Source: Polyangiaceae bacterium (GTDB taxonomy: Bacteria > Myxococcota_A > Polyangia > Polyangiales > Polyangiaceae). From it: a stretch of 45,119 bases of DNA. The stretch is taken from the NCBI GenBank assembly GCA_025937835.1, contig JAICQO010000055.1:1-45119 (forward strand). Direction: 5' to 3'. The translations under genes and the position numbers were made by a program. Positions 25,302 to 41,693 of the stretch are shown here, in pieces. Below the pieces are notes generated by a model, which saw nothing but the letters and a program-made list of their open reading frames with translations, had not been told where the DNA came from and made no database searches. The stretch's first letter is position 1, and each line of letters starts with the position of its first letter.

Positions 25302-25318
25302 TGGCATGCGGTCTGCAC
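25302..25318 (+). promoter_or_regulatory. Predicted sigma-54 (-24/-12) promoter P1
   Basis: TGGCATGCGGTCTGCAC matches the TGGCAC-N5-TTGC consensus with the required GG-N10-GC spacing. The predicted transcription start is about 25328, 19 nt before the ATG of the zinc-ribbon gene. It would drive the zinc-ribbon/glucan-synthase unit. Confidence 0.7.
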
Positions 25319-25346
25319 AGTGAGCTCCACCACAGTCGAATTCCCC

Positions 25347-25619
25347 ATGACTCGAGTGTTTCAAACCAACCCTGTCGACACCGAATGGCGAAACGTCTCT
25401 GAGCACAGCCCGTGCCCCATCTGCGGGGCATCCGAGGCGTGCCGCACGCACCCCGATGGGCATTTTGCGTGCTGCGCGCAGAAGCCGTCTGAGTGGCCGA
25501 TGACCAATGGTGCCTGGCTGCATCGGATCGCGCTCGCGCAGGTGTCCGAGGTCCGGCCCAGCGCGGTGCTGGAAGAGCACGTTTCTCGGAAGAATTCGGT
25601 GTTCGGTGCGCTTCCGTGA
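25347..25619 (+). CDS. Small stand-alone zinc-ribbon protein coupled to the glucan synthase
   Basis: A 90-residue soluble protein. The central CPICGASEAC...HFACC region (Cys23, 26, 32, 42/43), followed by EWPMTNGAWLHRI, resembles the zinc ribbon found at the N-terminus of phage and plasmid primases, but no primase domain follows. Its stop TGA overlaps the GTG start of the giant glucan synthase (GTGA), and P1 lies just upstream. Both argue that it is a real gene and first in that operon. Its job is unknown: a nucleic-acid-binding regulator or a translational leader are possibilities. Alternative: a chance frame, unlikely given the spaced cysteines. Confidence 0.7.
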   Translation: MTRVFQTNPVDTEWRNVSEHSPCPICGASEACRTHPDGHFACCAQKPSEWPMTNGAWLHRIALAQVSEVRPSAVLEEHVSRKNSVFGALP

Positions 25620-28600
25620 ACTCAGGGGAACGTCGCACGCCAGTGTCGCAGAGCGACGCCGGTGCGGCGTGCCCAGGACTCGACGCGGCGCGCGACTGCG
25701 ACGAACCGCCGTGTCTCCGGGGTGAAATCCTCAGCGCCGAACGCCTCGTCGAACACGCCGTCGACGTAGCCAGAGCCCAGGGGGAACCGACGCGGCGGGG
25801 GGCTCCGCGCCTTTTGTGGCAGCGCTACGTGAGCGCTCGCAATGGCCTGCGCGACGCCTACGAGATCCTCAAGCGCGAGTATCAGAACAAACGCGACCCG
25901 TCGCCGGCCGAGGAGTGGTTGCTCGACAATTCGCACGTCGTCGAGGAGCAATTCCGCGAAATCGAAGAGGACTTGCCGCGCGGTTACCTGAAAGAGCTGC
26001 CGCGGATCGCGGCTGGGGCGATGCGGGGCTGCCCCGCGGTCTACGGGCTGTGCCTCGACTACCTGCGCCACACGGACGCGCGCGTCGACCTCGGCACTCT
26101 CTCCCGCTACGTGCTCGCCTATCAGAGCGTGCGCGTGCTCACGATCGGGGAGCTGTGGGCGGTGCCGATCATGTTGCGCCTCGGGGTGTTGCTCGGCGTG
26201 AGCGCGATCGCGGCGGCAGAGACCAGCTCGCGTGAGCGGGCGCGCGGCGAAGAATGGGCGCAAAAGCTGCTCTCGCAGGCGCGGCGTCCCGAGACGCTCG
26301 CTCTCAGCTTGCTCGAGATCGAGCGCGGCCCGCAGATCACCGCGGCGTTCCTGGTGCAGTTGATCCGGCGCCTGCGCGAGCACGACGAGGCCGCGTTGAA
26401 CCCGGCCTTCGATTGGATCGCGCACCAGTCGGCAAAGCTCGGCGCGCCGCCGGAGGAGCTGGTCCGGCGTCAGCTGCTGCGGCAGGCCGCGGACCAGGTC
26501 TCGATCGGTAACGCCGTCACCAGCATGCGCGCGATCGCCGCCTTCGACTGGCACGAGTTCTTCGAGAGAACCAGCGCCGTCGAGGGCTTGCTGCGCAAGG
26601 ACCCGAGCTCCGACTACGCCGCGACGGATCCGAAGTCGCGCGACCGCTACCGGCACACGGTCGAGGGCCTAGCTCGTCGCAGCAAGAGCAACGAACAGGG
26701 CGTGGCCCAGGCCGCGCTCGAGCTCGCGCAGCGGCACGCATCCGAGCATTCGGTCGGCGACGTCGAAGCCCACGTCGGCTACTACCTGTTGGACGAGGGC
26801 CGCCGAGAGCTCGAGCGCCGCGTCTCGTACCGGCTGCGGCTCGGGGAGCGCTTGCGGCGAGCCGTCACCGGGCATCCGAGCTCGTTCTATTTCGGAGCGC
26901 TGTGCGTCTGCTTCGCTCTGGTGTGGGGCCTCGGGTTCAGCCTGTTCGGCGGTTTCACCGGCGGGATTTGGGGCGCGCTGTTCCTCGCGCTGCTCGCGCT
27001 GCCAGCGAGCGAAGTGGCGCTCGAGCTGGTGCACGGCCTCGTGATCTCGGGGCTACGCCCTCGGCTCTTGCCGCGCTTTGCCTTCAAAGACGGCGTCCCC
27101 GAGGGGGCACGGACGCTGGTCGCAGTCCCGGCGCTGCTCGAGAACGAATTGGTCATCGACCGGCTGCTCGAAGACCTCGAGGTGCGAGCGCTCGCCAACA
27201 ACGACGAGAACCTGCATTTCGCGCTGCTCACCGATTTCGTCGACGCTGAAAGCGCGGAAACGGCAGCCGATGCGCCGCTGCTCGAGCGCGCCGAGCGCGG
27301 TATCGCGGAGCTGAACCGCCGCCACGGCGGATCCAACCGGTTCTTGCTGTTCCACCGCCGCCGGGTCGAGGCCCCGAGCGAGGGCCGCTTCATGGGCTGG
27401 GACCGAAAGCGCGGCAAGCTGGAGGAGCTGAACCGGCTCCTGCGCGGCGCGGACGACACCACGTTCGTACGGCCGGTCGCCGTGCCCGAGCTCTTGGGCT
27501 CCATCCGCTACGTGATCACGCTCGACGCGGACACCGACCTGCCGCGCGACAGCGCTCGCAAGCTCGTGGCGACGCTGTCGCACCCGTTGAATCGCGCAGA
27601 GCTCGATCCGAGCCGAAAGCGCGTGGTCCGGGGCTACGGCATCATCCAGCCGCGGATCGGGACCTTGCCGCAAAGCTCGAGGCAGTCGCGGTTCGCGGCG
27701 ATCGCGGCCGGGCCGCCCGGGATCGATCCCTACACCACGGCCGTATCGGACGTGTACCAGGACCTGTTCGGCGAGGGTTCGTTCGTGGGCAAGGGCATCT
27801 ATGACGTCGACGCGTTCGCCGCGGCGCTCGCGGGGCGCGTCCCGGAAAATCGCCTGCTCAGCCACGACCTGTTCGAAGGCCTGTTCGCGCGCTCGGCGCT
27901 GGCCACGGACATCGAGTTGCTCGACGAGCAGCCGGCGGCCTACGAGGTTCAATCCGGGCGGCAGCATCGCTGGATCCGCGGCGACTGGCAGCTCTTGCCC
28001 TGGCTACTTCCGCGAGTCCCCGCGCGAGGCGGCGGCTCGCGGGCGAACGATTTGCGGCTTCTCGACTGGTGGAAGCTGTTCGACAACCTGCGGCGCAGCT
28101 TGTTGGCGCCGGCGTTGGTGCTGCTGTGCGTACTGGGCTGGGCAGGCGGCCAGGACCGCGCGCTACTCGCCACGCTTTCGCTCGGGCTCGTACTGGTCGC
28201 GCCGATCGCGCTCCGGTTGCTGTTCCAGCTCGCGCGCGACACCCGGCAGCTTTCGCCGGCGCGCTTCGGCGCGCTGGGCGGCGACATTCGATCGAACGCG
28301 ATTCAGGCGTTTTTGGCGCTCACGGTGTTGCTCGATCAAGCGCTGGTGGCATTGGATGCGATCGCCCGCACGCTCTATCGGGTCTACTGGTCGAAGCAGA
28401 GGTTGATGCAGTGGCGCACGATGCGGCAGTCGGCGCATCTGTTCGCTCAAGGAGACGCGCCGGTTGCGCTCCGCACCTACGTCGGGGCCGCCCTGTCGGT
28501 GGCGGGGCTCGCGCTGCTCGCCGGGTTTCAGCCGGAGTCGCTGTGGTTCGCCGCACCGGTGCTGTTCTGCTGGATGTCCGCACCGCTGATGGTCGGCTAC

Positions 28601-31600
28601 CTGAGCCGCGAGGTCGTACCTCCGAAGCCGATCGATCGCCTGTCGGAGAGCGACCGGCTGCTCTTGCGCGGGCTCGGCGCCAAGACCTGGCGCTTCTTCG
28701 AGACCTTCGTCACGGAGCGGGACAACTTCCTGCCGCCGGACAATTACCAGGAGGATCCGCGCGGCGTGGTGGCGCACCGCACCTCGCCGACCAACATCGG
28801 GCTTTACCTGATGAGCTCGCTCGCGGCGCGCGATCTCGGGATCATCACCATCCGCGAATGGCTCACGCGCGGCGAACAGACGCTGTCCACGCTCGAGCGG
28901 ATGGAGCGGCGGTCGGGGCACATCCTGAACTGGTACGACACCGAGACCCTGCGCCCGCTCGACCCGCAGTACGTGTCGACCGTGGACAGCGGGAACCTGG
29001 TGGCCGCCTTGTGGATCCTCCGCCAGGCGTGCGAGGAGTCCTGCGAGAGCGCGGTGTTCGGGCCCGAGACGCTCGAAGGTGTCGCGGATCTGCTGCGCTT
29101 CGCCGAACAAGGGCTGGAGGTGGCAGGGCGCGGCAGCAGCCGTTTCGGGCGGGAGCTCGCGAAGCTAGAGCGCGCCGTACGCAGCGCCGCGCCGTCGCTC
29201 GCGAAGGGGCCCGGCGCCGCGCTCGAAGAGCTCGACAGCGCGATCGCTCGGCTCCGCGAGCTCGGCCAGACCCCCGAAGCTCGAGAGGCACCGAGCGCGG
29301 TGAACCTCGAGCTGTCGCGCGCCGAGAGCAGCCTGCGCGCTCGGCTCGAGCTCCTGCGCGGCTTGTGCCCCTACCTCGAGAGCTTCCGGCGCCCGCCGCG
29401 ATTTCTGACCGAGGGGCGCTTCGCCCAAACCTTCCACGAGCTCGATCGCGCGATCGCGAGCGCGAGCAGCCTGGTCGCGATTCAGGAGCTCGGCGGGGCG
29501 ATCCCCGACTGGTGCCGCGACCTGCGCCGGCTCGCGGCGGAGTCCGGGCTCGGGGCGTTCGACCGCGGCATCGCCGACAGCTATCTGCGCGAGCTCGAGT
29601 CGCAGGTCGAGCGGGGAGCAAGGGCGGCGCTCGAGCTCGAGACGGGGCTGCGCGAGCTCGGACGGCGCGCGGGTCAGCTCGGCGACGGCATGGACTTCCG
29701 GTTCCTGTTCGACGAATCGCGCGAGCTGTTCGTGACCGGCTACAACGTCTCCTCCGCGCGCCTCGACACGTCGCACTACGACCTGCTCGCGTCCGAGGCG
29801 CGAATAGCCAGCCTGCTCGCGGTCGCCAAGGGCGACGTCCCGCAAGATCACTGGTTCCGGCTGGGCCGGCCACGGACCGCGGTGGAGTCGAGGCGCTGCT
29901 TGTTGTCGTGGAGCGGCTCGATGTTCGAGTTCTTGATGCCGCTGCTGTTCGCCAAGAATCAGCCTGGCACGCTGCTCTACGAGACCTGCGAGTCGGCCGT
30001 GCTGCGACAGCAGCGCTACGCCGCGGAGCGCGGAGTCCCCTGGGGCATCTCCGAGTCTTCGTACAACGTGATGGACCTCGGGATGACCTACCAGTACCGC
30101 GCGTTCGGGGTGCCGGGGTTGGGCCTCAAGGCGGGTCTCGGCGAAGATCTGGTGATCGCTCCCTATGCGACGGCCCTGTCGGCGATGGTGGCGCCGGAGC
30201 AGGCCGTCAAGAACCTGCGGCTGTTGTCGAAGGCGGGGCTCGACGGCGCTTACGGCCACTACGAAGCCATCGACTACACGCCGGGCCACGTTCCACCGGG
30301 GCGCGACGCGGTGATCGTCAAGTCGTTCATGGCCCACCACCAGGGCATGACGCTGGTGTCGATCGACAACGTGCTCAACGACTTCGTGATGCCCGCACGG
30401 TTCCACCGCGACGCGCGCATCCGCGCCAGCGAGCTCTTGCTCGAGGAGCGCATCCCGACCCGCGCTCCGCTCACGCGCGTGCCCGCAGCCTCGATCGTCA
30501 CGGCGCCGCACGGGGCACCCGAGCTCGATCTGACCGAGCATGTCGCGCTGACCCCGGGTGCGCCGCCGCGCGTGCACCTGCTCGGCCATGGTGAGCTGTC
30601 GACGATCGTGACCTCGACCGGGGGCGGAGTCACCACCTGGAAGGGGATCGACGTCAACCGCTTCCGCGAGGACCCGGTGCTCGATTCCGGCGGTATTTAC
30701 CTGTACATCAGGAACCTCAGCACGCCCAAGCTTTGGTCCGCCGGCTTCCAGCCGACCGCGGTCCGCGCCGATTTCTACGACGCGTCGTTCGCGATCGATC
30801 GCGTCGAGGTGCACCGCCGTGACGGCGAGATCGAGACCGTGACGCAGATCTTGCCCTCGCCCGAGCACCCCGCCGAGGTGCGCCGCTTCACGCTCACGAA
30901 CCACGGCAACAAGCCGGTCGACATCGACCTCACGACTTACACCGAGCTCGTGCTTTCGCCGCGCGGCGCGGACATCGCGCACCGCGCTTTCGGTAGCCTG
31001 TTCGTCGAGACCGAGGCGTTGCCCGAGCACGGCGCGGTGCTCGCGCGCAGGAAGCCGCGAGGCAAGTCCGAGGCCGAGGTCTGGCTCGTGCAATTGTTCC
31101 GCGGCGCCCCCGAAGACGGCTTCGATTACGACACTTCGCGCGAAGCATTCGTGGGCCGCGGTCGCAGCCTGCGCGACCCGGCAGCGCTGAGGCCGGGTGC
31201 GACGCTCGGCAAGAACGTCGGCTACGTGCTGGATCCGGCGCTGTCGCTGCGGCGCCGGCTGCGGTTGTTGCCCGGCAAGCCCGTACGCCGCTCGTTCATC
31301 ACCGCGCTCGCGAGCTCGCGAGACGAGGCGCTGTCGCTGATCGAGGCGTACTCGGCGCCGCACGGCATCGCGCGCACCTTCGAGCTCGCCTGGGCCGATG
31401 CGCGCGTCGAGCTCAAGCACCTCGGCATCACCGCGGTCGAGGTGCACCGCTTCCAGCGCCTGCTCTCGGCCGTGTTGTTTCCGAGGCCCGGGCTGCGCGA
31501 GCGAGGCGTGCCGCACGCGGAGCGTAGCGAAGGGCGCGCGGCGCTCTGGGCCCACGGCATTTCCGGCGATCTACCGATCGTCGTGTTCCGCATGGATCTG

Positions 31601-34462
31601 CCGGATTTCGCCGATCTGTGCCGCGAGCTCCTGCTCGCACACGAGTACTGGCGGCTGAACGGCGTCAGCGTCGATCTCGTGCTGCTGAACGAGGAGCCGA
31701 GCGGCTACGCGCAGCCGCTGCAGGAGGCGGCGCTGGGCTTGATCCGCGCCAATCATGCCGAGGGGCACCTCGACCAGCGCGGCGGTGTTCATCTGCGCCG
31801 CTCGGACACGATGACCGAGAATCAGCGCACGCTGCTGCTCGGAGCGGCGCGGGCCGTGCTGGTGGCTTCGCGAGGTTCGCTCGCGCGCCAGCTGCGCGCG
31901 GCGCTCGACCAACGGCCGCTCCCGGAGGCGCACGAGCCGCCGAGCGCCGCCCGCCCGGTGCGGCCGAGCCTGCGCCCGGAGCGCCCGCGGCTGACGTTCG
32001 ACAACGGCTTCGGTGGCTTCGACGATTCAGGCAGCGAATACGTGATCGCCTTCGAGCCGCCCGGAGCGACGCCCGCGCCCTGGAGCAACGTCTTCGCGAA
32101 CCCGGATTTCGGCGCGCTGGTGTCCGAGACCGGCGCGGGCTTTACCTGGTTCGGCAATAGCCAACGCCACCGACTGACACCCTGGAACAACGATCCGATC
32201 CTGGATCCGCCCGGAGAAGCGCTCTACGTTCGCGACGACGAGGACGGCGCGATCTGGTCGCCGACCCCGGCGCCGGCCGGCAATGGCGCGCACTTCCTGG
32301 TGAGACACGGCCAGGGCTACAGCCGCTTCGAGCACACGCGGAGCGAGCTCCGGCAAGAGCTCACGCTGTTCGTGCACCCGACGGAGTCCGTCAAGTTCTA
32401 TCGGCTCACGCTCGAGAACCTCGGCGCGTCACCCCGAAAGCTGTCCGTGTTCGGGGTCGTCGAATGGGTGCTCGGCAATCACCGCGAGCACACGCGCAAT
32501 TCGATCGTCACGAGCTGGGATCGCGAGGCCGAAGCTTTGGTCGCCACCAATCCATTGGCTGCGCTGACGGGACGGCACGCGTTCCTGAAGGCGACGCTCC
32601 CGGTTCGAAGCTTCAGCGGTGACCGTGAGGAGTTCTTCGGGCTCGCGGGCTCGAGAGCGCGGCCGCGAGCCCTCGAGCGGCGCGGACTGTCGGGACGCTA
32701 CGGCGCAGGGATGGATCCCGCCGGCGCGCTGCACGTCGAGCTCGAGCTCGCGCCCGGCGAGCGTCGCGAGCTCGGCATCCTGCTCGGCGAGGCCGAGAGC
32801 CCGATCGCGGCCCGCGCGCTGGCGCTCGAGCAAGGGACGGAAGCCGCGGTGGCCCGCGCGTTCGAGGCCGCGACCGGCAGCTGGCGAAAGCTGCTCGACA
32901 CCGTGCAAGTGCGCACGCCGGACCCGGCGCTCGACGTGATGATGAACCGCTGGCTGCTCTACCAGGTGGCGAGCTGCCGCTTCTGGGGTCGCTCCGCGTT
33001 CTACCAATCGAGCGGCGCCTATGGGTTCCGCGACCAGCTGCAGGACGTGCTTTCGCTCTTGCACGCGCGACCGGAGCTCGCGCGCGAGCATTTACTGCGC
33101 GCGGCGCGCCGTCAGTTCGAGCAAGGCGACGTCCAGCACTGGTGGCATCCCGAGGGCGGCGAAGGCGTGCGCACGCAGTGCTCCGACGATCTGTTGTGGC
33201 TGCCCTACGCGGCGGCGGAGTACGTCCGGGTCACCGGGGATCGAGCGATCTGGGACGAAGAGCTGCCGTTTTTGAGCGAGCGCGAGCTCGCCGTCGGGGA
33301 AGACGACCTGTTCGGCTCCCCGCGCGTGGGTGGCTCGGCGTCGCTCTACGAGCACTGCGAGCGCGCGGTCGTGCGCGGGACGACCCAGGGCCCGCACGGC
33401 TTGCCGCTGATGGGCGCCGGCGACTGGAACGACGGCATGAACCGCGTCGGCCACGCTGGAAGAGGCGAGAGCGTGTGGATGGCGTGGTTCTTGGCCAAGG
33501 TCCTGTCCGACTTCGCCGAGGTCGCCGCCGAGCGCGGCAACGCCGAGCGCGCGAGCTGGTGTCGGAACGAGATCCGGCGCCTGGCCGGGGCCGTGGACGA
33601 GCACGCGTGGGACGGCAGCTGGTATCGCCGCGCCTATTTCGACGACGGCGCGCCGCTCGGCACGCACTCGGACAGCGAGTGCCGGATCGACGCGCTCGCG
33701 CAGTCCTGGGCGGTGATTTCGGGCATCGCCCGGCCGGACCGCGCGGCGCTCGCGGTCTCGAAGTCCGAGGAGCTGTTGATCCGCGAAGAGCCGCGCACGA
33801 TGCTCCTGCTCTGGCCTCCGTTCGAGCATCACGCCCACGATCCGGGCTACATCCAGGCCTATCCGCCCGGGATCCGCGAGAACGGCGGGCAGTACACGCA
33901 CGGCGTGCTGTGGACGCTGCAGGCACTGTGTGCGCTCGGCGAGGGCGACCGCGCCGGGCGGCTGCTCACGCTCCTGAACCCGATCCAGCACGCGCGAACT
34001 CGCGAAGCGGCCGAGCGCTATCGCGTGGAGCCCTACGTCGTCGCGGCGGATATCTACTCCGCTTCCGGCTGGGACGGTCGCGGCGGCTGGACCTGGTACA
34101 CGGGCTCTGCTGCCTGGATGTACCGGATCACGCTCGAGTACGTGCTCGGTGTCTCGCGGCGCGACGATCACCTGCGCGTCAACCCGTGTATCCCCAGGGG
34201 GTGGCGTAGCTTCGACATCGAATACCGCTTCGGCGAGTCGACGCTCGCGATTCACGTCGAGAACCCCGAGGGTGTGGCAACCGGTGTGCGCCGCGTCGAG
34301 GTCGATGGCCTGCTGGTCGAGGACGGGCGCATTCCGCTTTCCTCGCACGTAGGCCGGCGCAGCGTACGAGTGTTGATGGGGCGCGGCACGAGTGATCGCC
34401 CCGCGGTCCCGCGCCCCGAGTCAGATTTGTCGAAGGCGCACGGCGAGCGTGCACATAGCTGA
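25616..34462 (+). CDS. ndvB: Cyclic beta-1,2-glucan synthase (NdvB/ChvB type)
   Basis: A 2948-residue membrane enzyme making cyclic beta-1,2-glucans from UDP-glucose, periplasmic osmoprotectants in rhizobia and Brucella. Membrane segments lie at ~422-470, ~825-871 and ~951-995. The GT84 glucosyltransferase between them has a DxD-type LDADTDLPRD near 632 and HRWIRGDWQLLPW near 783. A glycoamylase-like region covers ~1040-1600 (DPRGVVAHRTSPTNIGLYL, VSTVDSGNLVAAL). Two GH94 phosphorylase-related modules follow from ~1630; the second carries the catalytic-acid motif GAGDWNDGMN near 2601 and QYTHGVLW. GTG 25616 overlaps the zinc-ribbon stop by 4 nt. The frame is intact and full length. No NdvA exporter is in the window. 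Confidence 0.93.
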   Translation: MNSGERRTPVSQSDAGAACPGLDAARDCDEPPCLRGEILSAERLVEHAVDVARAQGEPTRRGAPRLLWQRYVSARNGLRDAYEILKREYQNKRDPSPAEEWLLDNSHVVEEQFREIEEDLPRGYLKELPRIAAGAMRGCPAVYGLCLDYLRHTDARVDLGTLSRYVLAYQSVRVLTIGELWAVPIMLRLGVLLGVSAIAAAETSSRERARGEEWAQKLLSQARRPETLALSLLEIERGPQITAAFLVQLIRRLREHDEAALNPAFDWIAHQSAKLGAPPEELVRRQLLRQAADQVSIGNAVTSMRAIAAFDWHEFFERTSAVEGLLRKDPSSDYAATDPKSRDRYRHTVEGLARRSKSNEQGVAQAALELAQRHASEHSVGDVEAHVGYYLLDEGRRELERRVSYRLRLGERLRRAVTGHPSSFYFGALCVCFALVWGLGFSLFGGFTGGIWGALFLALLALPASEVALELVHGLVISGLRPRLLPRFAFKDGVPEGARTLVAVPALLENELVIDRLLEDLEVRALANNDENLHFALLTDFVDAESAETAADAPLLERAERGIAELNRRHGGSNRFLLFHRRRVEAPSEGRFMGWDRKRGKLEELNRLLRGADDTTFVRPVAVPELLGSIRYVITLDADTDLPRDSARKLVATLSHPLNRAELDPSRKRVVRGYGIIQPRIGTLPQSSRQSRFAAIAAGPPGIDPYTTAVSDVYQDLFGEGSFVGKGIYDVDAFAAALAGRVPENRLLSHDLFEGLFARSALATDIELLDEQPAAYEVQSGRQHRWIRGDWQLLPWLLPRVPARGGGSRANDLRLLDWWKLFDNLRRSLLAPALVLLCVLGWAGGQDRALLATLSLGLVLVAPIALRLLFQLARDTRQLSPARFGALGGDIRSNAIQAFLALTVLLDQALVALDAIARTLYRVYWSKQRLMQWRTMRQSAHLFAQGDAPVALRTYVGAALSVAGLALLAGFQPESLWFAAPVLFCWMSAPLMVGYLSREVVPPKPIDRLSESDRLLLRGLGAKTWRFFETFVTERDNFLPPDNYQEDPRGVVAHRTSPTNIGLYLMSSLAARDLGIITIREWLTRGEQTLSTLERMERRSGHILNWYDTETLRPLDPQYVSTVDSGNLVAALWILRQACEESCESAVFGPETLEGVADLLRFAEQGLEVAGRGSSRFGRELAKLERAVRSAAPSLAKGPGAALEELDSAIARLRELGQTPEAREAPSAVNLELSRAESSLRARLELLRGLCPYLESFRRPPRFLTEGRFAQTFHELDRAIASASSLVAIQELGGAIPDWCRDLRRLAAESGLGAFDRGIADSYLRELESQVERGARAALELETGLRELGRRAGQLGDGMDFRFLFDESRELFVTGYNVSSARLDTSHYDLLASEARIASLLAVAKGDVPQDHWFRLGRPRTAVESRRCLLSWSGSMFEFLMPLLFAKNQPGTLLYETCESAVLRQQRYAAERGVPWGISESSYNVMDLGMTYQYRAFGVPGLGLKAGLGEDLVIAPYATALSAMVAPEQAVKNLRLLSKAGLDGAYGHYEAIDYTPGHVPPGRDAVIVKSFMAHHQGMTLVSIDNVLNDFVMPARFHRDARIRASELLLEERIPTRAPLTRVPAASIVTAPHGAPELDLTEHVALTPGAPPRVHLLGHGELSTIVTSTGGGVTTWKGIDVNRFREDPVLDSGGIYLYIRNLSTPKLWSAGFQPTAVRADFYDASFAIDRVEVHRRDGEIETVTQILPSPEHPAEVRRFTLTNHGNKPVDIDLTTYTELVLSPRGADIAHRAFGSLFVETEALPEHGAVLARRKPRGKSEAEVWLVQLFRGAPEDGFDYDTSREAFVGRGRSLRDPAALRPGATLGKNVGYVLDPALSLRRRLRLLPGKPVRRSFITALASSRDEALSLIEAYSAPHGIARTFELAWADARVELKHLGITAVEVHRFQRLLSAVLFPRPGLRERGVPHAERSEGRAALWAHGISGDLPIVVFRMDLPDFADLCRELLLAHEYWRLNGVSVDLVLLNEEPSGYAQPLQEAALGLIRANHAEGHLDQRGGVHLRRSDTMTENQRTLLLGAARAVLVASRGSLARQLRAALDQRPLPEAHEPPSAARPVRPSLRPERPRLTFDNGFGGFDDSGSEYVIAFEPPGATPAPWSNVFANPDFGALVSETGAGFTWFGNSQRHRLTPWNNDPILDPPGEALYVRDDEDGAIWSPTPAPAGNGAHFLVRHGQGYSRFEHTRSELRQELTLFVHPTESVKFYRLTLENLGASPRKLSVFGVVEWVLGNHREHTRNSIVTSWDREAEALVATNPLAALTGRHAFLKATLPVRSFSGDREEFFGLAGSRARPRALERRGLSGRYGAGMDPAGALHVELELAPGERRELGILLGEAESPIAARALALEQGTEAAVARAFEAATGSWRKLLDTVQVRTPDPALDVMMNRWLLYQVASCRFWGRSAFYQSSGAYGFRDQLQDVLSLLHARPELAREHLLRAARRQFEQGDVQHWWHPEGGEGVRTQCSDDLLWLPYAAAEYVRVTGDRAIWDEELPFLSERELAVGEDDLFGSPRVGGSASLYEHCERAVVRGTTQGPHGLPLMGAGDWNDGMNRVGHAGRGESVWMAWFLAKVLSDFAEVAAERGNAERASWCRNEIRRLAGAVDEHAWDGSWYRRAYFDDGAPLGTHSDSECRIDALAQSWAVISGIARPDRAALAVSKSEELLIREEPRTMLLLWPPFEHHAHDPGYIQAYPPGIRENGGQYTHGVLWTLQALCALGEGDRAGRLLTLLNPIQHARTREAAERYRVEPYVVAADIYSASGWDGRGGWTWYTGSAAWMYRITLEYVLGVSRRDDHLRVNPCIPRGWRSFDIEYRFGESTLAIHVENPEGVATGVRRVEVDGLLVEDGRIPLSSHVGRRSVRVLMGRGTSDRPAVPRPESDLSKAHGERAHS

Positions 34463-34592: not shown

Positions 34593-35117
34593 ATGAAGTT
34601 GAAGTCGAGCTCGATGTTGTTGGCAGCGGCCGGGATCTTTTCGGTCGTCACGAACACGAGCCTGGCGAACGCGGAGCCAGGCCGACGCGCCGAGGCGGCG
34701 ACGCGAACGGATCGAGTCGAGACCACGGGCCCCAATCGCAAGTTGCTCTCGAGCGGCGCCTGGACGCTGGGCCTCTCGTACGCGCCAGCGCTGGTCGTCG
34801 CGATCAAGAGCGAGCGCCGCGGCGATGATTACCTGTATTACCCCGTGGTCGGTCCCTGGCTCGATCTTGCCCACAGGAAGTGTGCAACTTGTGGGGATGA
34901 CAACCTCAATCAAGCGCTGCTCGTGACCGACGGCGTGTTCCAGGGCATTGGTGCGCTGTCGATCCTGGGTGCGTTCTTGCTGCCGGAGCGACACACGACC
35001 ACCACGGTCAGCCGGGCCCGCGTCGAGAAGAAGGAAGCGCAGACCGGCCTCGATCTCAAGCTGAAGCCCGTGCGGCTGAGCGGCGGCTACGGGCTACAGG
35101 CGACCGCTCGCTTCTGA
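34593..35117 (+). CDS. Exported protein of unknown function
   Basis: A 174-residue protein. ATG 34593 has a good AAGGAG with a 7-nt spacer. A Sec signal covers residues 1-27 (MLLAAAGIFSVVTNTSLANA, cleavage predicted after ANA). The mature part has two weakly hydrophobic stretches (SSGAWTLGLSYAPALVVAI; VTDGVFQGIGALSILGAFLL) with a CATCGDDN motif between them, and ends in KLKPVRLSGGYGLQATARF, which looks like outer-membrane beta strands. The aromatic C-terminal Phe fits an outer-membrane protein signal. No family recognised. Expected to be sigma-54 controlled through P2 and ended by the terminator at 35141. Confidence 0.8.
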   Translation: MKLKSSSMLLAAAGIFSVVTNTSLANAEPGRRAEAATRTDRVETTGPNRKLLSSGAWTLGLSYAPALVVAIKSERRGDDYLYYPVVGPWLDLAHRKCATCGDDNLNQALLVTDGVFQGIGALSILGAFLLPERHTTTTVSRARVEKKEAQTGLDLKLKPVRLSGGYGLQATARF

Positions 35118-35201: not shown

Positions 35202-35507
35202 TCAGGTGATGCTGGCCGATGCCGGCGGGTCGCTCGCGGGGAACGACTCGAGCGAAGTCTTATCCACGAAGTCCAGGGTCTTCCGCGACTTCTTGCGCGG
35301 AGACTTGTCCCCGAGCGCGGCGTTGAGGAGCACCGTGGCGCCGGCGGCCGTGGCAAACACACCGAGCCAGCCACGCTTTGCCAGCCCTGCCGCCGAGAGC
35401 AGCGTGCCGACTACCCACTGCGCAGTCTGGGCGCGGCGTTCTCGCACTTGTGTGCGTTCGCCCACGCGCATGATGTCGAATGTGTTCTCCGTGATCGGTT
35501 GCGTCAT
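35202..35507 (-). CDS. Small membrane protein with SFPASDPPA tail motif
   Basis: A 101-residue protein. One hydrophobic hairpin covers ~27-66 (WVVGTLLSAAGLAKRGWLG, VFATAAGATVLLNAAL), resembling the YgaP-type DUF2892 membrane domain. A basic stretch (KSPRKKSRK) and a C-terminal SFPASDPPA at 88-96 follow; that tail motif is found in many small bacterial proteins of unknown role. ATG 35507 is backed by AAGGAG with a 6-nt spacer, and by P3 about 30 nt upstream. It shares an intergenic region with the divergent encapsulated-ferritin gene. Confidence 0.8.
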   Translation of the reverse strand: MTQPITENTFDIMRVGERTQVRERRAQTAQWVVGTLLSAAGLAKRGWLGVFATAAGATVLLNAALGDKSPRKKSRKTLDFVDKTSLESFPASDPPASASIT

Positions 35508-35534: not shown

Positions 35535-35551
35535 AAGCAGGCAATGTGCCA
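35535..35551 (-). promoter_or_regulatory. Predicted sigma-54 (-24/-12) promoter P3
   Basis: Minus strand TGGCACATTGCCTGCTT, GG-N10-GC spacing, with a complete TGGCAC. Predicted start about 35525, 18 nt before the ATG at 35507 and just ahead of its AAGGAG. Confidence 0.78.
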
Positions 35552-35636
35552 GCGCACGGCTTCGCGTAAATCAGCGCGAGCACGCGGAAATTGCGTGGCT
35601 GTCCGCACCACCCGCGCTGAAAGTCGCGGCGTTCTG

Positions 35637-35650
35637 CCTCGATTTCGGGG
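35637..35650. promoter_or_regulatory. Candidate activator site between divergent P3 and P4
   Basis: CCTCGATTTCGGGG, a near-palindrome (CCYCGA-N2-TCGRGG). It resembles the elements at 34501-34514 (CCTCGATTTTACGG) and 41620-41635, each upstream of a sigma-54-type promoter. Confidence 0.4.
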
Positions 35651-35680: not shown

Positions 35681-35697
35681 GGGCACGAAAGCTGCAG
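35681..35697 (+). promoter_or_regulatory. Sigma-54-like element P4 upstream of encapsulated ferritin
   Basis: GGGCACGAAAGCTGCAG has GGCACG and TGCA with GG-N10-GC spacing. The predicted start (about 35707) lies only 2 nt before the ATG at 35709, so use would give an almost leaderless message; this lowers confidence. Confidence 0.45.
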
Positions 35698-35708
35698 AAG
35701 TGGTGAGT

Positions 35709-36074
35709 ATGACCGATTATCACGAGCCCCCCGAGGAGCTCGACGCCCGGGCCCGAGACTTTCACCGCGCTCTTACCAGCCTCAAAGAAGAAATCGAAGC
35801 CGTGGACTGGTACGCGCAGCGGGTCGCGCGGGCCACGAGCCCCGAGCTCCGCCATGTGCTCGACCACAACCGTCGGGAAGAGATCGAGCATGCCTGCATG
35901 ACGCTCGAGTGGCTACGGCGCGAGGATCCCGAATGGGATTCGGCGCTCCGCACGTACTTGAACCAGAAAGGCGAGATCGTCGCGCTCGAGTCGCACGACG
36001 CGGACGAGGCGCCGAAACCCGACGATTCGGGCAAGGGCCTCGGCATCGGCTCGCTGCGCGGAGTGACGCAGTGA
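35709..36074 (+). CDS. Encapsulated ferritin-like protein (EncFtn), encapsulin cargo
   Basis: A 121-residue iron-oxidising ferritin-like protein that works inside an encapsulin shell. The two-helix core has EEIEAVDWYAQRVA and HNRREEIEHACMTLEWLRR. Glu28, Glu58 and His61 match the metal ligands Glu32, Glu62 and His65 known in Rhodospirillum rubrum EncFtn, with Trp34 and Tyr35 also kept. The C-terminal LGIGSLRG (111-118), after an acidic linker, is a classic encapsulin-targeting peptide. GTG codons at 35700/35703 could extend it, but ATG 35709 fits the family. Its stop overlaps the encapsulin GTG (GTGA), so cargo and shell are translationally coupled. Confidence 0.94.
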   Translation: MTDYHEPPEELDARARDFHRALTSLKEEIEAVDWYAQRVARATSPELRHVLDHNRREEIEHACMTLEWLRREDPEWDSALRTYLNQKGEIVALESHDADEAPKPDDSGKGLGIGSLRGVTQ

Positions 36075-36862
36075 ACCTGCTCCGTCGTTCGCTCGCGCCC
36101 GTCCCGGACGCGGCCTGGGAAACGCTCGAGTCCGCCTCGCGCGAAGCGCTGAAAGAGCAGCTGGTCGCGCGCCGGATCGTCGACTTCGACGGGCCGCACG
36201 GGCTGGCTCGCGCCGCCGTGAACCTCGGCTCCCTCGCGCCCGTCGATCTGGGGCCCGGAGTGAGCGCCGGCCTGCGCGAGGTGCAGCCGCTGTTCGAGGT
36301 CCGCGTCCCGTTCGTGGTCTCGCGTCGCGCCGTCGACGACGCGGCGCGCGGAGCCCCCGACTTCGACACCTCGCCGGCCGTCGAGGCCGCGCGAAAGCTC
36401 GCCGAAATCGAGGACCGCGCGGTTTTTCACGGTCTCGAAGCCGCGGGCATGCGCGGCCTGGCCGAGTGCTCGCCGCATCCGGCGCTCTCGCTCGGCGAGG
36501 ACCCGCTCGGGTTCGCGGACGTCGTCGCCCGCGGACTGGCGGCGCTCGACGACGCCGGCGTGGCCGGGCCTTACGCGCTCGTGCTGGGTTCCGCGCCGCA
36601 CCGCAGGCTCGCGGCCGTCTCCGCGATTTACCCGCCGCTCAAGCACCTGAGCACGCTGGTTTCGGGCCCGGTGTTGCGCAGCCGGACGCTCGACGGCGGG
36701 CTCTTGGTATCCCTGCGCGGCGGCGACTTCCGCCTGACCGTCGGCCAGGACGCCGCGATTGGCTATCGCCGGGACGATGGCGATCGGGTCGAGCTGTTCT
36801 TCGTCGAGAGCTTCACGTTCCTCGCGCTCGGTCCCGAGGCCGTGGTTCGTCTCAACTCTTAG
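36071..36862 (+). CDS. Encapsulin shell protein (family 1, HK97 fold)
   Basis: A 263-residue protein, the normal size for the 60-subunit class. The N-terminal arm (MNLLRRSLAPVPDAAWETLE; KEQLVARRIVDFDGPHG; NLGS) is the cargo-docking region. REVQPLFEVRVPFVVSR, an E-loop/A-domain region and a C-terminal FFVESFTFLAL follow in family order. It forms an icosahedral protein compartment that stores iron oxidised by EncFtn and protects against oxidative stress. The GTG start at 36071 overlaps the EncFtn stop. Its last 11 nt overlap the end of the convergent metallopeptidase gene. Confidence 0.95.
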   Translation: MNLLRRSLAPVPDAAWETLESASREALKEQLVARRIVDFDGPHGLARAAVNLGSLAPVDLGPGVSAGLREVQPLFEVRVPFVVSRRAVDDAARGAPDFDTSPAVEAARKLAEIEDRAVFHGLEAAGMRGLAECSPHPALSLGEDPLGFADVVARGLAALDDAGVAGPYALVLGSAPHRRLAAVSAIYPPLKHLSTLVSGPVLRSRTLDGGLLVSLRGGDFRLTVGQDAAIGYRRDDGDRVELFFVESFTFLALGPEAVVRLNS

Positions 36863-37880
36863 GCGTGGCGCCGTCTCGCGCGGCGGCCACGATCTTGTGC
36901 ACGAGCGCGAGCTTCTGCTTCACGCGCGCCGAGACCGCGAACGGGTAGGCGTCGGGTAGGCCCATGCTCCGATTCAGCGCGTTCAGCGCGATCGTGAGCT
37001 CGGTCCACTCCTCGAACAGACGGTCGAACCCGCCGGGTACGTCGGCTCTCGAGACGGTCTCGCTGGCGAAGCCGAAGTGGCGAGCCGTCTCGAGCGTGTC
37101 GGTGAGGTGCAGAAAGTGAGCGAAGGTTTCCGCCCAATCCTCCCAGGGGTGGCTGGCGGCGTAGGCGGAGATGAACGACTCGGCGTAGCTCGGATCGGGC
37201 CCGTTCTTGTAGTGGCGCTCGAGGGCTTGAGAGTAGTCAGCCCGCTCGTCTCCGAAGGTGTCCCGAAAGCTTCCGAGCGCCGGGGCGTCGCGGACCAGAA
37301 CCTCCCAGTAATAATGACCGATCTCGTGGCGGAAATGCCCCAGTAGCGTGCGGTAGCGCTCGTTCATCTGGGTTCGCATCTGCTCGCGCAGCACCGGATC
37401 GGCTTCGCCGAGGTTCAGCGTGATTAATCCCTCGGAGTGTCCCGTGAGCACCCGGGTCGCGCCGTCGTCCTTCTTGATGTCGAAAGCCAGGCCGTTCGTG
37501 GCGTCTTCACCCTTGGGAGTCAGCGGCAAGCCCAGGCGATCGAGACCGTAGACGAGGCGGCGCTTGGCCTTCTCGACCTCCGCCCAGAGCTCTCGGTTCT
37601 TCGGGTCGGACAGGTCCGGGATCACGTTGTTGAGGCGGCACGCGCGGCACAGCTCCTCGCTATCACCCTCGGGGATCATCCAGTTGCACACCCCGAGCGC
37701 CACGTAGTTCCGACATTTTCTGAAGGTGCCCGAGAGCGTCCGATAGTTTTCGTCACCCCCGGGCTCGAGCGCGAAGATCTCGCCGGACTCGGAAACGAAC
37801 CCGAGCTCGCGACCGCACGTGAGGCAGGCGGTGTTGTCGAAGAAGACGCGAGCGCCACAAGTGCAGCGGAAGGTTCTCAT
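36852..37880 (-). CDS. Putative zinc-binding metallopeptidase with zinc ribbons
   Basis: A 342-residue cytoplasmic protein of the PF10005/PF15887 type. The N-terminal ribbon has Cys6, 8, 19 and 22 (CTCGARVFFDNTACLTC); a second Cys set is at 56, 65, 78 and 81. The metallopeptidase motif HEIGHYYW has His185, Glu186 and His189, with a downstream acidic/aromatic region (DYSQALERHYKNG, PWEDWAETFAHFLHL) as in the family. Substrates are unknown. The start at ATG 37880 puts the first ribbon at the N-terminus. It is preceded by P5 on the minus strand, and the gene overlaps the encapsulin end convergently by 11 nt. Confidence 0.88.
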   Translation of the reverse strand: MRTFRCTCGARVFFDNTACLTCGRELGFVSESGEIFALEPGGDENYRTLSGTFRKCRNYVALGVCNWMIPEGDSEELCRACRLNNVIPDLSDPKNRELWAEVEKAKRRLVYGLDRLGLPLTPKGEDATNGLAFDIKKDDGATRVLTGHSEGLITLNLGEADPVLREQMRTQMNERYRTLLGHFRHEIGHYYWEVLVRDAPALGSFRDTFGDERADYSQALERHYKNGPDPSYAESFISAYAASHPWEDWAETFAHFLHLTDTLETARHFGFASETVSRADVPGGFDRLFEEWTELTIALNALNRSMGLPDAYPFAVSARVKQKLALVHKIVAAARDGATPKS

Positions 37881-37902
37881 GGGTGTTCAGTCTGCGCCCG
37901 AT

Positions 37903-37919
37903 TTGCAGGTCGCGTGCCG
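37903..37919 (-). promoter_or_regulatory. Predicted sigma-54 (-24/-12) promoter P5
   Basis: Minus strand CGGCACGCGACCTGCAA: full GGCACG, TGCAA, GG-N10-GC spacing. Predicted start about 37893, 13 nt before the metallopeptidase ATG. Confidence 0.68.
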
Positions 37920-37973
37920 AGCTTCGAGAAAGGCCACGGGGCTTTGCCCTGGCGCCCAGGGCGCGGGACGACG

Positions 37974-39620
37974 ATGGCTCTGGATTTGCATTCGGACGGC
38001 TCGCTTGAAACGCGGTGGAGTTTCGATTCCGACATGACGGCCAGCCAGTCCAACGAAGAGAACGTGATGATCGACGCGCGCCGGGCAGCGCATGGGTTCG
38101 CGCTTGCGACTCCGGAGCCACCCTTCCAGTCCTTCGTCGAAAACATGCAGGAGGGGGCGATCACGCTCGCCGCCGACGGGACCATCCTCTATGCGAACGC
38201 ATTCTTCGCCGCGCTGGTGAAGCGCTTGCCGTCGCAACTGATCGGGCTCGAGCTCCGCGCGTTGGTGCTTCCGGACTACGAATACACCGCCCAAGAGCTG
38301 CTGAAGAGCGGGCTGTCCGGGACGGCCAAGGGGACGCTGCGGCTCGCGGCCGGCGACGAGAGCATCCCCGTGCAACTCACGCTGAGCCCGCTCGGCCACG
38401 GGCCCGAGCCCAGCTGCTGCTGTGTGGTGTTCGATCTGCGCGAGCGCGAGCTGTTCGAGAAGGTGCACGCCGAGCAGCAAGCCGCCGAGCAAGCCAACGC
38501 GGCCAAGGACCGCTTTCTCGCGATCCTGAGCCATGAGCTGCGTTCTCCGCTGAATACGCTGCTCGGCTGGGCGCAGATCCTGAGGCAGCGCGGGGATCTC
38601 GACGAGTCATCGCGCCGCGCGATCCAGACCATCGAGCGCAGCGCGCGTGCGCAGGCTCAGATGGTCGCCGATCTGCTCGATATCTCGCGGATCGTCGCCA
38701 AGAAGCTGCAGCTCGAGCTCGACGTGGTCGACTTCAAGAGCGTGGTGGAGTCTGCCGTCAGCGCGGCCGCGCTCGCGCGAACCGACAAGTCGGTCGAGCT
38801 TTCGAGCGAGCTCCCGGAGCTCGACGTACCCGTCAACGGCGACGCCGCGCGCTTGCGGCAGATCGTCACCAACTTGCTGAACAACGCCGTCAAGTTCACG
38901 CCGAGCGGCGGCAAAATCCGGGTTCGCTTGGAGTCCGCGGAGCGAGAGGCCGTCCTGAGCGTGACCGACACGGGTGTCGGCATTCAGCCCGGGCAACTGC
39001 CGCACGTCTTCGATCCGTTCCGCCAGGCCAGCGCCGACCTCAACCATCGAAAAGGTGGTCTCGGGCTCGGGCTCGCGATCGCGCGGCAGCTGACGGAAGC
39101 CCACGGCGGTCGCATCGAGGCGCACAGCGATGGGCCGGGATGCGGCTGCACGTTCACGGTGCGGTTGCCGCAGACGCCCGCGCAAGCCCTTCAATCCCAG
39201 GAAGGTGCAGCGCCCGGCGGCGAGCTCCGCGCGGTCCGGGTGCTGGTGGTGGACGACGAGGCCGACACCCTCGAGCTGACGCGCTACCTACTCGAGAGCG
39301 CTGGCGCCGTGGTGGAGACCGCCGACAGCGCGCCGGCGGCCCTCTCGCTGCTCGATTCGCGCCGCTTCGACGTGCTGGTCAGCGACATCGGCCTGCCGGG
39401 ACAAGACGGCCACGCCCTGGTGCGCGAGCTGCGAGCGCGCGGTTACTCCGGCAACGCCTTTCCAGCGATTGCCCTGACCGGCTATGCTACGAGCGCCGAC
39501 GCGACCATGTGCGCCGCCGCCGGCTTCCAGATGCACCTCGCCAAACCCGTGGACGCCCGCGAGCTCGTGCGCAGCATCGCGCGCCTCGCCGCCAGCCGCG
39601 AGAGCAGCTACTCCGCGTGA
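37974..39620 (+). CDS. Cytoplasmic hybrid histidine kinase (PAS-HK-receiver)
   Basis: A 548-residue soluble kinase. A PAS sensor domain covers ~48-150 (VENMQEGAITLAADGTILYAN). The dimerisation helix has SHELRSPLN with phospho-His187. The ATPase domain covers ~235-395 (N box LLNNAVKFTPSGG, DTGVGI, FDPFRQ, GLGLGLAIARQL). A C-terminal receiver has phosphoacceptor Asp471 (LVSDIGLPGQDG). There is no membrane segment, so it senses an internal signal. ATG 37974 was chosen; ATGs at 38034 and 38067 are possible. Its stop overlaps the phospholipase D gene (GTGA). It is a plausible partner for a downstream phosphorelay. Confidence 0.92.
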   Translation: MALDLHSDGSLETRWSFDSDMTASQSNEENVMIDARRAAHGFALATPEPPFQSFVENMQEGAITLAADGTILYANAFFAALVKRLPSQLIGLELRALVLPDYEYTAQELLKSGLSGTAKGTLRLAAGDESIPVQLTLSPLGHGPEPSCCCVVFDLRERELFEKVHAEQQAAEQANAAKDRFLAILSHELRSPLNTLLGWAQILRQRGDLDESSRRAIQTIERSARAQAQMVADLLDISRIVAKKLQLELDVVDFKSVVESAVSAAALARTDKSVELSSELPELDVPVNGDAARLRQIVTNLLNNAVKFTPSGGKIRVRLESAEREAVLSVTDTGVGIQPGQLPHVFDPFRQASADLNHRKGGLGLGLAIARQLTEAHGGRIEAHSDGPGCGCTFTVRLPQTPAQALQSQEGAAPGGELRAVRVLVVDDEADTLELTRYLLESAGAVVETADSAPAALSLLDSRRFDVLVSDIGLPGQDGHALVRELRARGYSGNAFPAIALTGYATSADATMCAAAGFQMHLAKPVDARELVRSIARLAASRESSYSA

Positions 39621-41095: not shown

Positions 41096-41104
41096 GTGCA
41101 CGTT

Positions 41105-41227: not shown

Positions 41228-41234
41228 CGTCAGC

Positions 41235-41486
41235 TCACACGTTCGCGCGGCGATATGCCGCAGCGGCGATGCCCAGGCAGGCAAGAGATCCCGCCATGCT
41301 GCCCACCAGGTTGGCCGACTGCACCTCTGCCAGCGGAGTGCCGCCCAGCAGGCTCACCAGAATGCCCCCGGCGAAAGACCCAGCAATCACGGCCGGTACG
41401 GTTCCAACCGCGTCGCGATCCGGCAGGAGAGCACGGCCCAGCAGTGCGACTACGGCGCCCAGAACGAAGAAGGCGAGGAGACTCAT
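41235..41486 (-). CDS. GlsB/YeaQ/YmgE-family small membrane protein
   Basis: An 83-residue protein of three hydrophobic helices separated by Gly-rich turns (MSLLAFFVLGAVVALLGRAL; VPAVIAGSFAGGILVSLLGG; LVGSMAGSLACLGIAAAAYR). This is the pattern of the YeaQ/YmgE "transglycosylase-associated" family, often stress-induced. ATG 41486 is preferred over GTG 41498, because the start predicted from P6 (about 41496) lies between them. The conserved family LLPDRDAVG (compare LMPG) segment is present. Function is unknown in the family; an envelope or osmotic stress role fits the context. Confidence 0.75.
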   Translation of the reverse strand: MSLLAFFVLGAVVALLGRALLPDRDAVGTVPAVIAGSFAGGILVSLLGGTPLAEVQSANLVGSMAGSLACLGIAAAAYRRANV

Positions 41487-41505
41487 TGCTTTCAGCACGG
41501 CACCG

Positions 41506-41522
41506 AAGCAAGGGGGGTGCCA
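41506..41522 (-). promoter_or_regulatory. Predicted sigma-54 (-24/-12) promoter P6
   Basis: Minus strand TGGCACCCCCCTTGCTT, a complete TGGCAC-N5-TTGC match. Predicted start about 41496, 10 nt before the ATG of the YeaQ-like gene. Confidence 0.8.
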
Positions 41523-41619
41523 GTGTGGGATGCCAATGAAGCCGAGCGGAACGCCTCGCTGACCTGGGGCTTTTTACGACACAGGTGGCGGTTTTGCTCG
41601 TGGCGCGTGTGCGGAACGC

Positions 41620-41635
41620 CCTCGAAATTTCGGGG
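41620..41635. promoter_or_regulatory. Candidate activator site between divergent P6 and P7
   Basis: CCTCGAAATTTCGGGG contains the perfect palindrome CGAAATTTCG (41623-41632) and has the form CCYCGA-N4-TCGRGG, related to 35637-35650. Confidence 0.45.
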
Positions 41636-41676
41636 ATTGGCTGGAAATTTGGGCGATACCACGCTGCCGCGGAGTT

Positions 41677-41693
41677 CGGCATAGCGCCTGCAT
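41677..41693 (+). promoter_or_regulatory. Possible sigma-54 (-24/-12) promoter P7
   Basis: CGGCATAGCGCCTGCAT, GG-N10-GC spacing, matching GGCA and TGCAT. Predicted start about 41703, 72 nt before ATG 41775. Weaker than P2, P3 and P6. Confidence 0.5.

Follow-up and report, generated by a model that had tools for sequence, protein, structure and literature searches.

We analysed a stretch of 45,119 nt from a Polyangiaceae bacterium (GenBank assembly GCA_025937835.1, contig JAICQO010000055.1, positions 1 to 45,119), referred to below as the window. Seven elements in it have the form of sigma-54 promoters (GG-N10-GC, with a consensus near TGGCAC-N5-TTGCW). They stand in front of genes for a cyclic-glucan-synthase-like protein and its zinc-ribbon-like partner, an EncFtn encapsulated ferritin with an encapsulin shell, a zinc metallopeptidase, a receiver-helix-turn-helix (receiver-HTH) protein and three further small proteins, and the gene of an NtrC-type sigma-54 activator, EBP2, adjoins them. 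The locus is a genuine cluster of sigma-54 promoters, conserved in part and next to the gene of its probable activator, and the kind of system is known. The seven elements are very probably sigma-54 promoters, because similar elements precede several of the same genes in relatives and an activator gene lies next to them. They are listed here with two further candidates; scores are those of a 16-position sigma-54 (-24/-12) matrix, and gene starts come from a simple in-house caller.

25302 to 25317, plus strand: sigma-54 element TGGCATGCGGTCTGCA, ahead of the zinc-ribbon open reading frame (ORF) and the cyclic-glucan synthase; score 16.7, 29 nt to the ATG
34544 to 34559, plus strand: sigma-54 element TGGCATTCGCCTTGCT, ahead of a putatively exported protein of 174 amino acids (aa); score 17.0, the best of the window
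35536 to 35551, minus strand: sigma-54 element TGGCACATTGCCTGCT, ahead of a small membrane protein; score 16.5
35681 to 35696, plus strand: sigma-54 element GGGCACGAAAGCTGCA, ahead of EncFtn-encapsulin; score 14.0, EncFtn ATG 35709 at an offset of 12 nt from the last base
37904 to 37919, minus strand: sigma-54 element CGGCACGCGACCTGCA, ahead of the zinc metallopeptidase; score 14.5
41507 to 41522, minus strand: sigma-54 element TGGCACCCCCCTTGCT, ahead of an 83-aa membrane protein; score 16.2
41677 to 41692, plus strand: sigma-54 element CGGCATAGCGCCTGCA, ahead of the receiver-HTH protein; score 14.1
37975 to 37990, plus strand: candidate extra element TGGCTCTGGATTTGCA, ahead of a hybrid kinase if that gene starts at ATG 38034; score 13.8, overlapping the called start 37974
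23235 to 23250, plus strand: weak element AGGCACGGGAAGTGCA, ahead of EBP2, with possible autoregulation; score 11.9, 16 nt to ATG 23267

The original prediction had described seven GGCAY-N5-YTGCW elements, and the window holds exactly seven matches at those places, its numbering counting the base before the GG. Shuffling the window 100 times with dinucleotides preserved gave a mean of 0.55 matches (maximum 3), a comparison that is post hoc because the pattern was drawn from these same sites. With the matrix, only the seven elements score at least 14 (14.0-17.0), followed by the 13.8 at 37975 on the plus strand and by a 12.4 inside coding sequence. As had been proposed, all seven point the right way: they lie outside called coding sequence, and the called start on their strand follows at 3-82 nt. 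If the starts preferred by homology or ribosome-binding site are used, the gap is 12 nt for EncFtn, 28 nt for the small membrane protein and 33 nt for the exported protein. The proposed lack of an equal match in the first 25 kb is borne out too, the best site there outside called genes being the 11.9 at 23235. This site before EBP2 and the one before the hybrid kinase (37975) are the additions to the predicted seven. The elements at 37904 (minus) and 37975 (plus) form a possible third divergent sigma-54 pair (37881-38033).

How dense is the cluster compared with the rest of the genome? In a motif-blind sample of 657 kb (40 stretches of contigs C170-C209 minus C189, the contig that the window covers in full), which covers 554 genes, there are 13 sites in all scoring at least 14, and 7 of them lie upstream of genes, corresponding to 0.48 per 45 kb. 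A biased sample of 396 kb chosen around pattern matches has 16 such upstream sites, or 1.8 per 45 kb. Among 100 listed genome matches, none of them in the window, the densest 16.4-kb span holds at most 3. The Poisson probability of seven in 16.4 kb is 4e-8 at the rate of the exact pattern and 8e-10 at the rate of the matrix (2e-5 and 4e-7 when multiplied by the number of spans). The spacing between GG and GC provides a further control. In 1.12 Mb of this genome and 0.53 Mb of relatives, with stretches partly picked for their elements, we count 80 non-redundant upstream elements of at least 13.5 with the true spacing and 0, 5, 1 and 2 when it is shifted by -2, -1, +1 and +2. Most upstream elements in these sequences therefore look real. 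Comparison of matrix scores with background had been named in advance as a check, and the seven elements stand above genome background, spacing controls and Poisson expectation.

The same numbers bear on whether the matches could simply have arisen by chance, given a G+C-rich genome. Genome-wide there are 137 matches to the exact pattern compared to 188 for the pattern read backwards, so that outside promoters the bare pattern is mostly chance; it was also read off the sites themselves. The matrix was written from the literature consensus TGGCACG-N4-TTGCW and not from a data file. In a 400-kb sample of G027, from another genus of the same family, there is no excess over spacing controls (2 upstream elements and 1+1 control matches). 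These observations favour chance, but the matrix and spacing controls in genome and genus, the Poisson values of the cluster and the conservation before homologous genes described below speak against it, and we consider chance a very improbable explanation.

A second set of observations concerns the position of start codons. Of the 80 upstream elements, 22 are followed by an ATG that starts 11-14 nt past their last base, and 35 by an ATG or GTG at this distance. In 50 other 4-nt windows, the mean is 5.2 (maximum 12) for ATG and 9.8 (maximum 16) for ATG or GTG, and offsets 0-10 hold a total of only 5 ATGs. The count of ATGs is independent of the gene caller except in the choice of the 80 elements. 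If the transcript start (+1) is 12 nt after the C of the GC, those ATGs would lie at +2 to +5. For EncFtn, the homology-supported ATG 35709 has an offset of 12 and the relatives in genomes G003 and G007 have an offset of 14. The phase is seen at window positions 35681-35711, at loci L094, L091, L245, L248 and L253, and at others. Accordingly, we predict that many sigma-54 promoters of the genus produce leaderless or near-leaderless mRNAs; the sharp rise in start codons at 11 nt would also fit a real transcript start there. The elements could instead be sites of another DNA-binding protein that resemble -24/-12 promoters. We find this hard to credit: the GG-N10-GC spacing is fixed, the orientation is strict, start codons rise sharply from 11 nt past the element as expected for a transcript start, and rpoN is present in the genome (one PF04552 match, 213.6 bits).

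The genes behind the elements are the following.

25347 to 25619, plus strand: zinc-ribbon-like ORF, 90 aa, preceding the glucan synthase; no Pfam match, 41-59% identical over 61-75 aa in five relatives
25643 to 34462, plus strand: cyclic-glucan-synthase-like protein with GH94 and glycoamylase domains (frame 25493-34459); start from the in-house caller
34593 to 35117, plus strand: protein of 174 aa, by eye apparently carrying a signal peptide; unmatched in Pfam and NCBIfam
35202 to 35507, minus strand: small membrane protein, 101 aa; no family match, a search of 58 other genomes finding homologues in 3 (E 3e-12 to 3e-6)
35709 to 36074, plus strand: EncFtn encapsulated ferritin; Pfam EncFtn-like, TIGR04535 above cut-off, C-terminal LGIGSLRG motif
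36071 to 36862, plus strand: family 1 encapsulin shell protein; NF041155 above cut-off
36852 to 37880, minus strand: zinc metallopeptidase (Peptidase_Mx) with a zinc ribbon
37974 to 39620, plus strand: hybrid histidine kinase with PAS, HisKA, HATPase and receiver domains (from 38034); a candidate partner of EBP2
41235 to 41486, minus strand: small membrane protein, 83 aa; no family match
41775 to 42374, plus strand: receiver-HTH protein, 199 aa; Pfam HTH_8 and a weak Response_reg, an activator relative without AAA+ domain

The shell family, the cargo family and the targeting motif identify a family 1 encapsulin with EncFtn cargo; C-terminal targeting motifs of this type are typical for EncFtn and family 1 encapsulin cargo. 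Two labels of the original prediction need revision. The 83-aa membrane protein had been called YeaQ-like, a name for which we find no Pfam or NCBIfam match at 0.001 (41238-41486). The receiver-HTH protein had been called a pseudo-receiver regulator: its receiver narrowly passes the Pfam cut-off (33.9 versus 30.2 bits) and, judged by eye, carries Glu in place of the usual acceptor Asp. It consists of receiver and HTH only, with no AAA+ domain, and does not qualify as a functional sigma-54 activator. Its HTH shares 75% identity with the HTH of a degenerate G004 activator of 450 aa. Together with relatives in L254, L260, L258, L259, L256 and L110 it makes up a family of degenerate NtrC-type activators with similar HTH sequences (NQTRAAxLLGLTRDQIRYRM and the like). 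By eye, the degenerate activators in G004, G002, G003, G007 and G005 have no GAFTGA-type loop. The window protein and its G058 relative are without any AAA+ domain and the G046 relative keeps GAFTDA.

Conservation of the elements in relatives, proposed with the original prediction as a check, is seen at four of the seven, namely the zinc-ribbon/glucan synthase unit, the small membrane protein, the metallopeptidase and, in part of its loci, EncFtn, and is weak for the receiver-HTH and 83-aa membrane proteins. The element of the zinc-ribbon/glucan synthase unit is present in all five homologous loci found (G003, G006, G007, G010 and G050; scores 14.5-16.8), where it ends 15-115 nt before the zinc-ribbon start. 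A glucan synthase in G005:C56 was excluded, the contig end leaving only 79 bases upstream. When the 450 nt before the glucan synthase itself are scanned, 4 of 15 have an element, that of G010 lying farther off before its zinc-ribbon ORF; nine distant synthase relatives (at most 43% identity) show none in those 450 nt. Five relatives thus share the small zinc-ribbon-like ORF itself, conserved upstream of their glucan synthase.

For the small membrane protein, an element precedes all three homologues (15.0-16.6). For the metallopeptidase, 6 of 9 homologues have an element of at least 13 and 8 of 9 one of at least 11.5, a match in L298 (E 5e-4) having been dropped before the count; six of these eight elements begin 30-46 nt ahead of the protein match. 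EncFtn has elements of 14.4-16.9 at -30, -30 and -37 in G003, G007 and G051, that is in 3 of 16 testable loci of relatives (17 loci, of which L027 has 5 bases upstream; the weak matches L028 and L029 were dropped). The EncFtn start MSEYHEP is common to these three genomes and reads MTDYHEP in the window. The G003 and G007 loci carry the metallopeptidase as well, with an identical element TGGCACATCGCGTGCA, and in G051 the EncFtn element has a divergent partner element. An alignment search over bacteria found 190 EncFtn relatives, of which 80 loci were kept, and 4 of these (L152, L158, L171 and L179) have an element of at least 11 within 160 nt upstream. Before the receiver-HTH relatives, we find 14.5 in G004 at a similar distance, 12.7 in G003, 11.2 in G002 and none in four others. 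The gene of the 83-aa membrane protein has an element of at least 13 at 3 of 20 distant homologues, one of which is a paralogue in the same genome. No homologue of the exported 174-aa protein was found among the relatives' loci examined, and no relative of the window's encapsulin on the genome contigs searched.

In L152, a Synergistales EncFtn locus, a strong sigma-54-like element of 17.2 lies at -89 (about 2063-2078) and may reflect chance or parallel control. EncFtn loci L097 (7635-11564, in G051:C373), L158 and L171 also sit among sigma-54 elements, those of the G051 locus preceding CBS-domain and outer-membrane-like genes.

Next to the cluster lies the probable cognate activator, and candidate enhancers stand upstream of several elements.

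23267 to 24679, plus strand: EBP2, NtrC-type sigma-54 activator; Pfam Sigma54_activat, Response_reg and HTH_8 (frame 23186-24676)
24743 to 25132, minus strand: single-domain receiver RR1; Pfam Response_reg, a homologue of 68% identity close to the EBP2 fragment of G004:C553
23146 to 23164, no strand assigned: enhancer-like dyad GCGTGACATTTGGCCTCGC, upstream of the EBP2 element; 14.3 with a motif that included the window, a second dyad near -58
25225 to 25243, no strand assigned: enhancer-like dyad GGGAGGCGAAATGGCTCGC, upstream of the 25302 element; 9.2 with the window-free motif
35624 to 35642, no strand assigned: enhancer-like dyad TCGCGGCGTTCTGCCTCGA, in the gap of the divergent pair 35536/35681; held-out score 13.1
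41583 to 41601, no strand assigned: enhancer-like dyad AGGTGGCGGTTTTGCTCGT, in the gap of the divergent pair 41507/41677; held-out score 7.9

EBP2 has the full NtrC-type architecture of receiver, AAA+ domain and Fis-type HTH, with GESGTGK, GAFTDA (a variant of GAFTGA) and LFLDEI recognised by eye in its translation; because receiver, GESGTGK, GAFTDA and Fis HTH are all present, it would be expected to be active. Its best matches are 56-93% identical in all 7 other genomes of the genus searched. These homologues recur near the same genes. For example, the EBP2 homologue lies about 1.3 kb from the glucan synthase in G005:C56 and G006:C102 and 8 kb from it in G003:C72 and G007:C43; in G001:C435 it lies 3 kb from the small membrane protein, and in G004:C553 an EBP2 fragment (93% identical) has RR1 and the small membrane protein as neighbours, the distance to the small membrane protein in these two genomes being 1-3 kb. 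In G006:C7 an EBP2 relative is itself preceded by an element (16.4), 13 nt before the ATG. In the relatives' EBP2 loci, the genes that follow elements of 12.6-16.9 encode a mechanosensitive channel, TerC, a KaiC-like ATPase and proteins of the CBS-domain, pyridoxamine-oxidase-like, DUF2383, alpha-amylase/CBM48/DUF3459 and GH1 types, besides one whose Holin-X match is sub-threshold. This set of gene names reads as an osmotic and general stress theme. In L253 (7559-13694, G006:C7), next to the EBP2 relative, a KaiC-like ATPase, an MscS-type channel and a DUF3072 protein each follow a sigma-54 element.

Nine loci with EBP2 homologues in other genomes, 240 kb in total, have 27 elements of at least 13.5, or 5.1 per 45 kb, compared to 0.62 in the unbiased sample of the window's own genome. 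The EncFtn loci of G003, G007 and G051 have 2.3, 2.3 and 4.1 per 45 kb, and five other stretches of the genus, picked for relatives of the receiver-HTH protein or of the activators (G002:C9 included), have 7 elements in 95 kb, or 3.3 per 45 kb. The background density for the genus is not well fixed.

The dyad motif was learned on 35 promoter regions outside the window, with the window held out and divergent partners removed. The learned motif, cG.GGCa...tGCC.Cg, scores 56.2 compared to 21.8-29.0 for five shuffles. The choice of motif width and region followed previous runs in which the window took part, and the shuffles had 25 restarts versus 80. The held-out scores of the six promoter regions of the window are 13.3, 9.2, 0.4, 13.1, 1.2 and 7.9, the first being that of the second site near -58 in the EBP2 region. 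A dyad of at least 7.9 is found in 4 of the 6 regions compared to 4.3% of 324 ordinary upstream regions (binomial 0.0015), a threshold that equals the weakest of the four and was set after the scores were seen. No ordinary region (0/324) reaches 13. Among 28 other sigma-54 promoters of the genome (28 used of 29, one being too short), 6 score at least 7.9 and 2 at least 13; taken as a group, they show no difference from ordinary regions (0.36). Two G007 promoters each carry a pair of dyad sites 19 bp apart. In G003:C72 an exact dyad of the form GAGGCN5GCCTC, GAGGCAAATCGCCTC, lies about 105 bp before EBP2.

The plain GAGGCN5GCCTC dyad was rejected as a specific enhancer: the window has no exact copy, and with at most one mismatch it has 7 compared to 6 expected per 45 kb. 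Exact copies per strand number 22 in G000 (35 for the backward control), 38 in G003 (30) and 42 in G007 (31). A listing of inverted repeats alone showed no clear enhancer in the window.

Taken together, we think it probable that the seven promoters and EBP2 form a local stress and envelope regulon that is switched on together by this activator. Recognition of GG-N10-GC promoters by sigma-54 polymerase and their opening by an enhancer-bound NtrC-type AAA+ protein are established for the family, and the regulon reading is mechanistically complete because rpoN is present and an NtrC-type activator lies beside the cluster. RNA polymerase carrying the sigma factor encoded by the only rpoN gene would wait at GG-N10-GC. 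An NtrC-type activator, most likely EBP2, would be switched on by phosphorylation, perhaps by the hybrid kinase at 37974-39620, would bind dyads of the form CGnGGCA-N3-TGCCnCG about 55-95 nt upstream of most promoters and would spend ATP to open them. The action of EBP2 on these promoters is suggested by linkage and dyads. The cyclic-glucan synthase and its zinc-ribbon partner, the EncFtn-encapsulin, the zinc metallopeptidase and several small envelope proteins would thereby be produced jointly, as a set that may protect against osmotic, envelope and iron stress, the inducing stress being deduced from the gene content. EBP2 itself probably belongs to the set through autoregulation. None of 8 sigma-factor matches in the genome (95.8% complete) passes the RpoS family cut-off, which leaves room for a sigma-54 stress programme. 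The local RpoN regulon of the original prediction thus stands as regards elements, enrichment, spacing, position, conservation at four genes, rpoN and activator; a single activator for all seven promoters and the stress theme are the parts that we infer.

Several results weigh against a single regulon under EBP2. No dyad is found with the held-out motif at the 34544 or 37904 elements, the rank test of window dyads against ordinary regions gives 0.07, and the difference between the window and the 28 other sigma-54 promoters is not significant (P = 0.23). The exact dyad in G003:C72 faces not only EBP2 but a divergent gene too, and no element of at least 12.5 is listed next to it; exact dyads are not rare in genomes of the genus, given 38 in G003 and 42 in G007. 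The other 13 testable EncFtn relatives have nothing above 10.0 upstream, 76 of the 80 EncFtn loci over bacteria lack an element of at least 11, and 17 of 20 homologues of the 83-aa membrane protein are without element. Two stretches with EBP2 homologues, G005:C56 and G002:C9, have no element of at least 13.5, and since other selected stretches hold 3.3 per 45 kb, the EBP2 neighbourhoods are not clearly set apart within the genus.

In an alternative reading, the sigma-54 promoters are genuine but answer to several unrelated activators, their clustering being a gathering of stress genes and not one regulon. The genome has 48 Sigma54_activat matches, 42 of them strong, and two of the strong ones are in the window; the dyad, besides being missing at two elements, is no better here than at other sigma-54 promoters; and sigma-54 elements are frequent in other selected stretches of the genus. 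Nevertheless, EBP2 homologues are repeatedly linked with the same target genes in different arrangements, and the dyad is common to four of the six regions. We consider control by several activators rather unlikely, and a common regulon under EBP2 is the reading that we prefer.

The window encodes further proteins. A second NtrC-type activator, EBP1 (17267-18697), has receiver, AAA+ domain and Fis HTH. A phospholipase-D-like protein is recognised by Pfam and NCBIfam, and a protein with seven HAMP matches (42766-45117) is truncated where the contig ends. Neither Rfam nor tRNA scanning gave a match in the window.

If the common regulon is true, encapsulin iron storage, cyclic glucan synthesis and a metallopeptidase are placed under one activator-gated switch in a little-studied bacterial group, with a named activator, defined promoters and a predicted enhancer. 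A broader conjecture, which we offer tentatively and hold to be open to considerable doubt, is that sigma-54 serves the genus as a general osmotic and envelope stress sigma factor. Many promoters would be fused to the start codon and give activator-gated leaderless or near-leaderless mRNAs, and the activator relatives that lost a working AAA+ domain (41775 and others) may have become specialised antagonists or co-regulators. Stress conditions favour leaderless mRNAs. The near-leaderless arrangement, if true, would couple sigma-54 control to translation start in an unusual way.

In the open-licence literature we found no description of glucan synthase, encapsulin and membrane genes grouped under sigma-54. 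Searches of that literature returned nothing for encapsulin joined with sigma54 or RpoN, only Borrelia work for RpoN combined with osmotic and general stress response, no title on myxobacteria among the matches listed for cyclic glucan with RpoN, and no title on Myxococcus xanthus for leaderless with that organism. The same shell and cargo families are known from EncFtn and family 1 encapsulin operons (PMC8346489), a study whose main text does not contain the words promoter or sigma. The envelope theme has a counterpart in sigma-54 as a controller of the bacterial exterior, going by the title of PMC3162934. A study of predicted sigma-54 regulons across bacteria resembles ours in matrix prediction, in Polyangia being among its classes and in envelope genes; MscS channels are among the predicted targets in its passage on Planctomycetia, and its main text has no occurrence of encapsul, glucan or ferritin (PMC12316311).

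A close likeness is to NmpR (NmpRSTU) of Myxococcus xanthus, an NtrC-like activator with paired inverted-repeat enhancers upstream of sigma-54 sites, which documents the sigma-54/NtrC-type mechanism in a myxobacterium (PMC11841059). According to the parts of that source consulted, the NmpR system has, like the one proposed for the window, an NtrC-like activator, enhancers upstream of sigma-54 sites, regulation of its own genes and a small regulon partly adjoining the activator, with CBS-domain and universal stress proteins among the targets. The two differ in the enhancer, GCGCA-N5-TGCGC for NmpR compared to GGCA-N3-TGCC in the window, and in the targets, which are oxygen-use genes for NmpR and glucan, encapsulin and envelope genes here; EBP2 is likened to NmpR by features and not by homology (PMC11841059).

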